Shown here one piece after another: positions 38,365 through 41,344 of a stretch of 64,000 nucleotides of DNA (positions are counted from its first letter, which is position 1; each line of letters opens with the position of its first letter). Made by a program: the position numbers and the translations under genes. This DNA is from Bacillus sp. Bos-x628 (GTDB taxonomy: Bacteria; Bacillota; Bacilli; Bacillales; Bacillaceae). The notes beneath the pieces are model-generated. The model was given only the letters and a program-made list of their open reading frames with translations, made no database searches and was not told the origin of the DNA. The stretch is from the NCBI RefSeq assembly GCF_040500475.1, contig NZ_CP159358.1, positions 2,418,001 through 2,482,000 on the forward strand, read 5' to 3'.

Positions 38365-38862
38365 GTGAATAGAAGGTATACGATGGTGTTGGTCATCGTC
38401 AGTGTACTATTGATTGTGAGTGCTTGCGGTAAACCGAGCTTTAAAAAAGAGGCGGCAGCATTTGGGGAAAACTATAAAAAAGCACAATACACAGTGAATC
38501 GAACGGATGACCTATCTGAAATGAAAGAGAAGTTGAAGTTTTATTTAACAGAGCATGAATATCAGGAATATACACAAGACAGTATGTTTCCAAGTGTATT
38601 AGAAGCAGCCAAGGACCAAGATTGTCAAATTAAGCTGAAAAAAATAACGTTTACATCTTCAGATGAAAGCGATGACAGAATTGAGTTTGACTATAAAATG
38701 ATGATTCAATTTATCGATCAAAAAGGAAATATCAAAAAGGAAATCGAGAAAAAAGGACAAATGACTGTCATTCAAACGGAATCAGGTTTGAAAATTAGCC
38801 GAGATTGGGACGGAAGGCTTTATCCGTCTGACTACCAATCATCCCCCCAAAGTCGTTCATAA
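38365..38862 (+). CDS. ywkF: Putative lipoprotein YwkF
   Basis: A 165-residue secreted protein with a lipoprotein signal: MNRR, a hydrophobic core and a lipobox ending VSAC at Cys21. The mature part is charged and mostly alpha/beta without recognised motifs. GTG start at 38365 follows AAGGAG. Position between prmC and spoIIR corresponds to B. subtilis ywkF; function unknown. Confidence 0.82.
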   Translation: MNRRYTMVLVIVSVLLIVSACGKPSFKKEAAAFGENYKKAQYTVNRTDDLSEMKEKLKFYLTEHEYQEYTQDSMFPSVLEAAKDQDCQIKLKKITFTSSDESDDRIEFDYKMMIQFIDQKGNIKKEIEKKGQMTVIQTESGLKISRDWDGRLYPSDYQSSPQSRS

Positions 38863-39696: not shown

Positions 39697-40152
39697 ATGT
39701 ATTATCAATTAAGGATTGCCACAGAAGAAGATGCTCCAGCTATCAATGCTTTTCTGGAAAAGGGACAAGCCAAAGGTGGCGTGACGATCGCGGACCGTAC
39801 ACAATTTGTTGTCATGGAAGATGCAGATCATCAACTTGCGGGCTGTTTAGGCCTTGAACGGCTAAATGAACAAGAAGGGCTACTGCGCTCGCTCGTTATA
39901 TCAGATAAACTCGGTCAGGGTCATATTGTATCTTTATTTCAAAGTGTGCAAACATTGGGAGAAAAACGAGGTGTGGATACTTTCTATGTAGTGGCGAATC
40001 ATGCATCCTCTAAAGAATTTTTAGCATTAATGGGCTTCTCACCTTTAAAGAAAATGCCAAAAAGCATTTGGTTATCGGAGCATGCGAAAGAGTCATTGGG
40101 GATAGAACAAGCTGTTGTGCTGCAAAAAAGGGCAGTTAGTCACAAAACATAG
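39697..40152 (+). CDS. ywlB: GNAT-family acetyltransferase-like protein YwlB
   Basis: A 151-residue GNAT-fold protein. The start MYYQLRIATEEDAPAINAFL is a typical N-terminal strand-helix, and LLRSLVISDKLGQGHIVSLF is the acetyl-CoA pyrophosphate loop (V-x3-Q/R-G-x-G-x). Substrate unknown. AAAGAGGTG precedes the ATG. B. subtilis has ywlA between spoIIR and ywlB; it is missing here. Confidence 0.88.
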   Translation: MYYQLRIATEEDAPAINAFLEKGQAKGGVTIADRTQFVVMEDADHQLAGCLGLERLNEQEGLLRSLVISDKLGQGHIVSLFQSVQTLGEKRGVDTFYVVANHASSKEFLALMGFSPLKKMPKSIWLSEHAKESLGIEQAVVLQKRAVSHKT

Positions 40153-40155
40153 GAC

Positions 40156-40362
40156 TTATACACATACTTATCCACTGATAAACAAGTGTTGTCCACAATT
40201 TGTGGACAACACTTGTTTTATTTAGCGCCATCTTTTATACTTTCAACAGGATAATTGAGATATATCAACAGTTATATCTTTTTTAGAAGGAGTTTGTCTG
40301 ATGTTAAATACAAAAAGGTGGTCTGTGGATTCAAAGAATGATTTATCCACATACTATCCACA
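40156..40362. promoter_or_regulatory. DnaA-box cluster upstream of and inside the start of ywlC
   Basis: Against TTATCCACA: TTATACACA (40156), TTATCCACT (40168), TTGTCCACA (40189), its inverse TGTGGACAA (40201), a perfect TTATCCACA (40343) and CTATCCACA (40354). A further perfect box is at 40664. Six boxes in about 200 bases is far above chance. To my recollection ywlC in B. subtilis is a DnaA-regulated gene with one of the DnaA-box clusters outside oriC, so this appears conserved. Confidence 0.8.
40180..40224 (+). terminator. Long perfect hairpin after ywlB built from inverted DnaA boxes
   Basis: AAACAAGTGTTGTCCACAA (40180-40198) and its exact complement (40200-40218) form a 19-base stem with a minimal loop, followed by TTATTT. 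Each arm contains one TTGTCCACA box. It can act both as a terminator in RNA and as a paired DnaA site in DNA. Confidence 0.8.
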
Positions 40363-41344
40363 AATTGAACAAGCAGCCCTGCTACTGCAACAAAACGAAG
40401 TTGTCGCTTTCCCGACAGAAACTGTTTATGGGCTAGGGGCAAATGCCAAAGAGACAGAGGCAGTCTTGAAAATTTATGAAGCGAAAGGACGTCCGAGTGA
40501 CAATCCGTTGATTGTGCACATTGCGGAGGTTCAGCAGCTTCATGAATTTGCGCAAATAGCAAACGAGAAAGCGAAAGCACTGATGGACGCTTTTTGGCCA
40601 GGGGCTCTAACTATTATTCTTCCTTGTAAGCCAGGTACTTTATCGAAGCATGTCACAGCTGGATTATCCACAGTGGGTGTGAGAATGCCTGATCATCCTG
40701 TTGCGCTTGAACTCATTCGAACGGCTGGTCTGCCGATTGCCGCACCGAGTGCCAACCGCTCAGGTAAGCCATCTCCAACTCAAGCGGACCATGTCGCAAG
40801 TGACTTGGATGGAAGAATAGCCGGTATTGTCGATGGTGGGTCTACTGGTATAGGTGTTGAGTCGACTGTTGTATCATGCCTAGATGAGATTCCGGTGATT
40901 TTAAGACCAGGCGGTATTACAAAAGAGGCTTTGGAAGAAGTGGTAGGAACAGTTAACGTGGACCCAGGGTTAACGAAAAAGGACGAGGTTCCTGTATCAC
41001 CCGGCATGAAATACACACATTATGCACCTGAGGCACATATGTATATCTTTCATGGAAGTGATGAAGACATGCAGCATCACATTTTTTCCTATCAGACTGC
41101 TGGTAAAAAAGTAGGTGTTCTTACAACAGAGGAAAAGAAGCACTTATTTTCAGCAGATGTTGTGTTGAGCTGTGGATGGAGGGAGAAGCCTGAAACCATC
41201 GCTGCCAATTTATATCATGTGCTCAGACAATTTGATGAAACAGACATAGACCTCATCATTTCAGAAGCTTTTGCAGAACAAGGAGTTGGTTCAGCCATTA
41301 TGAACCGCTTGCAAAAAGCGGCAGGAGGGCGTACGCTCTCTTAG
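40301..41344 (+). CDS. ywlC: Threonylcarbamoyl-AMP synthase (YwlC, TsaC/Sua5 type)
   Basis: A 347-residue two-domain Sua5-type enzyme that makes threonylcarbamoyl-AMP from threonine, bicarbonate and ATP for the t6A37 tRNA modification. The YrdC domain contains VVAFPTETVYGLGANA, KGRPSDNPLIVHI, PGALTIILPC and AAPSANRSGKPSPT; the C-terminal Sua5 domain follows SPGMKYTHYAPEAHM. GAAGGAG precedes the ATG. Expression is probably under DnaA control through the boxes that overlap its start. Confidence 0.95.
   Translation: MLNTKRWSVDSKNDLSTYYPQIEQAALLLQQNEVVAFPTETVYGLGANAKETEAVLKIYEAKGRPSDNPLIVHIAEVQQLHEFAQIANEKAKALMDAFWPGALTIILPCKPGTLSKHVTAGLSTVGVRMPDHPVALELIRTAGLPIAAPSANRSGKPSPTQADHVASDLDGRIAGIVDGGSTGIGVESTVVSCLDEIPVILRPGGITKEALEEVVGTVNVDPGLTKKDEVPVSPGMKYTHYAPEAHMYIFHGSDEDMQHHIFSYQTAGKKVGVLTTEEKKHLFSADVVLSCGWREKPETIAANLYHVLRQFDETDIDLIISEAFAEQGVGSAIMNRLQKAAGGRTLS

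Follow-up and report, generated by a model that had tools for sequence, protein, structure and literature searches.

The region described as "upstream of ywlC; downstream of ywlB" is region 6 among the top 20 DnaA-bound regions of B. subtilis, where it contains 9 sites and is bound with a Kd of 0.25 uM by ATP-DnaA and 0.45 uM by ADP-DnaA (PMC4447404). The same source places ywlC among the genes that DnaA appears to repress directly, as opposed to sda, which is activated and not repressed (PMC4447404). Expression from PywlC-lacZ drops in a B. subtilis mutant with approximately twofold more DnaA (PMC12112137), and ywlC belongs to the eight sets directly regulated by DnaA (PMC8203912). These statements, and the others that carry a PMC accession below, are taken from excerpts of the papers concerned. 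E. coli datA is similar in that it is a group of DnaA boxes on the chromosome that reduces initiation, but it works with IHF and promotes hydrolysis of ATP-DnaA (PMC5295017). B. subtilis has neither IHF nor datA, according to one review (PMC13220808).

The element that we analyzed in Bacillus sp. Bos-x628 is the ortholog of this B. subtilis ywlB-ywlC DnaA-binding region, because ywlB-ywlC is among the top eight regions in B. subtilis and DnaA represses ywlC there. The two share the junction and the downstream gene, with 7 boxes here and 9 sites in B. subtilis. The main facts of the ywlC DnaA site are already known from B. subtilis. A first-pass annotation of this DNA, made from sequence alone, had described ywlC as a DnaA-regulated gene with a box cluster outside oriC in that species, and the published excerpts agree (PMC4447404, PMC12112137). 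Fixed geometry, codon constraint, and reach into other families, which are described below, were not found in the excerpts of the literature that we compared, a set apart from the original cluster papers of 2007, 2012, and 2017.

Genes and DnaA boxes at the ywlB-ywlC junction

The window, which is the whole 64-kb stretch of DNA that was analyzed, includes spoIIR and, after it, a 151-amino-acid ORF (39697..40152, plus strand) that is the upstream neighbor of ywlC. This ORF is presumably ywlB, a name that we assigned from gene order. Its acetyltransferase-like product of the GNAT type matches the NCBIfam models for ArsN2 and for an N-acetyltransferase, both below cutoff, and a Pfam search gave no match. 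ywlC (tsaC2/sua5; 40301..41344, plus strand) encodes an L-threonylcarbamoyladenylate synthase with a Sua5 C-terminal domain, and family matches identify it as the Sua5-type first enzyme of t6A synthesis (TIGR00057 at 224 bits, cutoff 123.2; Pfam PF01300 and PF03481). This gene is closest to those of the B. pumilus group, and its protein shares 86 to 92% identity with those of 16 other genomes of the genus. No Rfam family was detected between 39000 and 42000 at gathering threshold. A short lipoprotein-like ORF resides at 38365-38862, between prmC and spoIIR.

We counted as DnaA boxes all matches to TTATCCACA with up to one mismatch. The two perfect and five one-mismatch boxes that had been proposed for this junction are all present where they were placed, six of them within 207 bases and all seven within 517. 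Box A (TTATACACA; 40156..40164, plus strand) fully matches the published consensus TTATNCACA (PMC4447404). Box B (TTATCCACT; 40168..40176, plus strand) comes from the one-mismatch scan and is present with no more than one mismatch in 36/44 genomes of the genus. Boxes C (TTGTCCACA; 40189..40197, plus strand) and D (TTGTCCACA; 40201..40209, minus strand) form the left and right arms of a head-to-head pair, and box D ends 3 bp from a -35-like hexamer. Two boxes lie close together within the beginning of ywlC: the perfect box E (TTATCCACA; 40343..40351, plus strand) covers codons 15-17, and box F (CTATCCACA; 40354..40362, plus strand) covers codons 18-21. The other perfect box (TTATCCACA; 40664..40672, plus strand) begins at +363 of ywlC.

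The seven boxes do not deserve equal weight. The box at 40664 is peripheral, since only 17 of the 44 genomes of the genus, every one from the pumilus clade, have it in register (perfect in 10), and its codons are unconstrained. Nor can those at 40189 and 40201 be treated as independent matches, because they are the two arms of a single 18-bp inverted repeat. A further DnaA box, GTATCCACA, occurs on the minus strand inside ywlB (39972-39980) and is kept in 15 of 17 pumilus-clade genomes.

The junction is far denser in boxes than its surroundings. Elsewhere in the window, there is at most 1 box per 207 bases and at most 2 per 520 bases, and 40 simulated 64-kb sequences reached maxima of 3 boxes in 207 bases and 4 in 517. 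The whole genome (3.33 Mb) contains 981 boxes with up to one mismatch, 43 of them perfect. At this genome-wide rate, a crude calculation predicts approximately 2e-4 clusters per genome with 6 boxes in 207 bases, and approximately 1e-3 with 7 in 517.

One of the compared loci (L103, genome G035) we take to be that of B. subtilis 168. On alignment it resembles the window in the A-33-C-12-D arrangement and in boxes E and F. The two differ in that C and D are both TTGTCCACA here, whereas G035 has one perfect arm. The perfect box at +363 is extra in the window, and G035 has extra one-mismatch boxes at -165, -24, and +208.

Conservation within the genus

A comparison of the junction across the genus showed that the cluster is kept, with a layout of boxes A, C, and D that is fixed in every genome and with signs of selection. 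We located ywlC in 44 genus genomes and listed boxes from -400 to +600. Every one of the 44 has five boxes or more between -250 and +400, whereas none of 308 control stretches of the same size from the same loci holds three. In all 44, box A fits TTATNCACA and precedes box C by 33 bp, and the head-to-head C/D pair has a 3-bp gap, giving the layout A-33-C-12-D. Box E is present with at most one mismatch in 44/44 and box F in 32/44. The C-to-E distance varies between 154 and 156 bp in 43 genomes and reaches 167 bp in the remaining one. DnaA control of ywlC was reportedly described by Ishikawa et al. in 2007 as maintained in most Bacillus species examined; if so, genus-level conservation is already in print. 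A literature search on conservation in B. licheniformis yielded no paper.

Boxes E and F also coincide with a constraint on synonymous codon choice. We considered a codon usable when its amino acid is kept in at least 90% of the 44 genomes and has more than one possible codon, which left 186. Normalized synonymous diversity is 0.20 under boxes E and F, compared with 0.71 at the other usable codons (one-sided Mann-Whitney p = 5e-4), with the small sample of five usable codons (15-17, 20, and 21) under the two boxes. Of the 123 stretches of 7 codons in ywlC, those that start at codons 16 and 15 show the lowest diversity, and the constraint under box F is at codons 20-21. Mean synonymous diversity is 0.79 over codons 23-44, so the constraint is not a general effect of the beginning of the gene. 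Codons under later boxes are unconstrained (p = 0.07 at +211 and p = 0.45 at +363). Codon choice is also nearly invariant, as we noticed post hoc, at codon 22, which borders box F, and at codons 9 and 10, where the minus strand carries a degenerate box (xxATCCACA). A post hoc codon set (9, 10, 15-17, and 20-22; 42/44 genomes, p = 5e-6) was replaced by the test restricted to E and F.

A promoter-like block and an inverted repeat

Directly after the C/D pair, all 44 genus genomes have CTTGTTTT, 16 bases, and then TATACT. Judging by conservation, this block probably corresponds to a ywlC promoter of the form TTGTTT-17-TATACT, with box D adjoining its -35 side. The -35-like hexamer TTGTTT is at 40213..40218 (plus strand), and the -10-like hexamer TATACT follows 17 bp later at 40236..40241 (plus strand). 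This pair of hexamers was not among the calls of a consensus promoter scan. Many loci from other genera show the TATACT block as well. Conservation around the -10-like hexamer (CTTTTATACTTTCAA, 40230-40247) appears to extend beyond the hexamer in many loci, and these bases may carry an additional signal.

Boxes C and D are contained in an 18-bp inverted repeat with a 3-base loop (40180..40218, plus strand; arms 40180-40197 and 40201-40218) with the -35-like hexamer at its end. At position 3 of the two boxes, the arms would form an A-C mismatch in 22 of the 44 genomes, a G-U pair in 19, a G-C pair in 2, and an A-U pair in 1. Regardless of this pairing in RNA, exactly one perfect TTATCCACA arm and one TTGTCCACA arm are present in 41/44. 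The form seen in the window, in which C and D are both TTGTCCACA and neither arm is perfect, occurs in only 2/44 genomes (the G-C class). As read from these alignments, the conserved core is the head-to-head box pair and not the hairpin.

ywlC loci outside the genus

Two sets of loci were compared outside the genus. The named set comprises 70 loci outside the 44 genus genomes, drawn from the best 80 of 261 after ten genus duplicates were removed. Four or more boxes are present at ywlC in 64 of the 70, compared with 4 of 1090 control stretches. A Paenibacillus locus (L076) and an Alkalibacillus locus (L079) are among the named loci that lack boxes, while another locus labeled Paenibacillus (L049) has nine. 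The class set consists of 87 loci outside the genus, taken from 151 genomes drawn from the class. At least four boxes occur in 51 of these loci, one to three boxes in 8, and no box in 28. Among its 27 closest matches, 25 have four or more boxes and 2 have none, and the 60 loci picked for family spread divide into 26 with four or more, 8 with one to three, and 26 with none. With so many boxless loci, this arrangement falls well short of being universal among the class.

The cluster goes with ywlC, since it persists when the recognized neighbor differs. We pooled the two sets, which have three loci in common, into 157 loci and grouped them by the recognized upstream neighbor. Four or more boxes occur in 60 of 65 loci with YwlB, in 40 of 58 with SpoIIR but no YwlB, in 8 of 18 where only PrmC was recognized, and in 7 of 16 with no recognized neighbor. 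In a manual comparison of the distance between ywlC and dnaA, the loci that have boxes overlapped with those that lack them, so nearness to oriC alone does not account for the presence of boxes.

A head-to-head pair is found upstream of ywlC in 76 of the 138 loci that were scanned, one of which (L130) is a genus member. The gap between the paired boxes is 3 bp in 60 loci, 6 bp in 10, and of another size in 6, and the symmetric flanks extend over 0 to 8 pairs. The 6-bp gap replaces the 3-bp gap in several of the more distant lineages, Tumebacillus included (L073, L149, L152, L165, L172, L176, and L188), and is perhaps a second stable geometry.

A probable DnaA operator of ywlC and alternative explanations

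We think it probable that this region is a conserved, working DnaA operator of ywlC, on the basis of the boxes, their layout, their conservation, the codon constraint, and the promoter-like block. Binding of DnaA and repression of PywlC were reported by others in B. subtilis, and by analogy both would take place in the species of Bos-x628. In the proposed mechanism, DnaA would occupy boxes A to D upstream of the gene as well as E and F, the coding boxes nearest the promoter. The C/D pair ends 3 bp before the -35-like hexamer, so DnaA bound to it would exclude RNA polymerase from the -35 side of PywlC, and boxes E and F might form a second block downstream of the start. If DnaA blocks PywlC, expression of ywlC (TsaC2) should therefore fall when active DnaA is high. 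As a by-product, the cluster would hold several DnaA molecules and, together with other clusters, help to buffer free DnaA. Occlusion at -35, cooperativity, and any role of boxes E and F are parts of this mechanism that we infer.

Chance clustering of boxes in an AT-rich junction could be proposed on the grounds that boxes are not significantly enriched over the full window (23 matches where 18.25 are expected, with at least 23 in 16 of 100 shuffles). However, the local density, the presence of the cluster in 44/44 genus genomes, and the failure of any of the 308 control stretches from the same loci to hold three boxes leave this explanation with next to no probability. We also considered whether the inverted repeat (40180-40218) is chiefly an intrinsic terminator of the spoIIR-ywlB unit whose arms contain DnaA boxes as a side effect. 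The hairpin is indeed stable (z-score of -5.0 for the fold of 40140-40300), its outer pairs covary between genus genomes (GCG/CGC versus GTG/CAC), as a hairpin would explain, and some Peribacillus and Gottfriedia loci (L043, L045, and L027) have long symmetric flanks. Yet the T tract lies mostly within the stem, and only T-ATTT follows the 18 bp, instead of the T run after a GC-rich stem that marks intrinsic terminators; a terminator scan made no call here. Moreover, the A-C mismatch in 22/44 genomes preserves one perfect box at the expense of the stem, nine Neobacillus and Mesobacillus loci combine the 3-bp-gap pair with flanks that pair over only 0 to 2 bases, and the hairpin includes none of boxes A, B, E, and F. 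From the scan, the mismatches, and the flank pairing in relatives, we rejected a terminator as the main reading and regard it as quite improbable, although the repeat may serve as terminator and operator both.

A role as a DnaA reservoir deserves more weight, though we still consider it rather unlikely to be the main selected function. On this view, the cluster would serve to draw DnaA off oriC by titration, and its location beside ywlC would be incidental; such titration is compatible with an operator. B. subtilis cells without all six extra-oriC clusters initiate early (PMC5295017, PMC13220808), and a single cluster restored at various locations partly relieves early initiation (PMC5295017). 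The cluster in the window is approximately 261 kb from dnaA, which also suits a reservoir. A pure sink would, however, not require boxes in constant register with the promoter-like block and the first ywlC codons, as they are in 44 genomes, and the boxes stay with ywlC when the recognized upstream neighbor differs. The gcp cluster, between converging genes, fits a sink better. That the boxes are tied to the promoter and first codons of ywlC, even where no ywlB was recognized, favors control of ywlC over pure titration. The finding confirms the B. subtilis control site in a species of the B. pumilus group, with a geometry that is apparently under strong selection, and it provides an exact target for asking why the replication initiator controls a tRNA-modification enzyme.

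Other DnaA-box clusters and RNA-modification genes

When the genome was scanned for a comparable density of perfect boxes, only known DnaA regions were found. At least two perfect boxes within 520 bp occur at seven places, all of which match regions among the top eight of B. subtilis: upstream of dnaA, at trmE (MnmE), at rlmH (yydA), in the vpr region, at gcp (TsaD)/ydiF, at yqeG/sda, and at ywlC. For perfect boxes, similar density is therefore not a property of many random loci. Six of the places lie in five stretches (31.5 kb) that we read, and the seventh is the window. The names dnaA, dnaN, vpr, and ydiF are our assumptions from gene position. The genome also has the eighth region, which lies between dnaA and dnaN and carries a single perfect box plus three weaker matches, and a CAT/PRD antiterminator gene lies alongside the vpr counterpart. 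The counterparts of the gcp/ydiF, trmE, yydA (rlmH), vpr/ywcI, and sda/yqeG clusters are thus beside the same genes here, but they differ from the ywlC cluster in that spacing and box number are particular to each cluster, and the gcp/ydiF cluster is situated between 3' ends.

Four of the eight regions touch RNA-modification genes, namely ywlC, gcp, trmE, and rlmH (loci L081-L083 and L085 hold the oriC, trmE, rlmH/yydA, vpr, and sda/yqeG counterparts). The occurrence of DnaA clusters at two t6A genes, mnmE, and rlmH is suggestive, within the limits that mnmE adjoins oriC here and that the gcp cluster lies between two 3' ends, which makes control of gcp unlikely. The clusters beside tsaD (gcp), mnmE (trmE), and rlmH raise the idea that the extra-oriC DnaA regulon is largely an RNA-modification regulon. 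In its fullest form, which we offer as speculation and judge doubtful, DnaA control of the first t6A enzyme would be an old circuit of the Bacilli that ties the supply of tRNA modification to the active initiator, with the 3-bp-gap pair at PywlC as its signature. If true, the supply of a universal tRNA modification would be coupled to the amount of active replication initiator.

The first-pass annotation went further, linking replication status to translation through selected DnaA titration or DnaA control of t6A. The literature upholds its point that ywlC is regulated in B. subtilis, and our results uphold that the cluster is kept with signs of selection; they do not carry the rest of that interpretation. 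In B. subtilis, tsaC is not essential, whereas tsaB and tsaD are (PMC7408541), and when initiation at oriC is blocked, translation continues and the transcriptional role of DnaA is not significantly affected (PMC11019786). A dispensable tsaC and translation that runs on after a block at oriC argue against a simple coupling of replication to translation. Among the matches listed in a literature search on DnaA and t6A, there was no paper on such a link.

The gcp cluster comprises seven boxes and lies where the ydiF-like gene and gcp (tsaD) converge (L084:2255-2413; G000:C1 ~1680754-1680912). We counted boxes from 50 bases before to 400 bases after the gcp stop codon in the closest 30 of 61 genomes in the order: 20 have four or more, 1 has one, and 9 have none, against an expectation of 0.28. 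Spacings of 9, 12, 22, and 42 bp in this cluster recur in many loci of the order.
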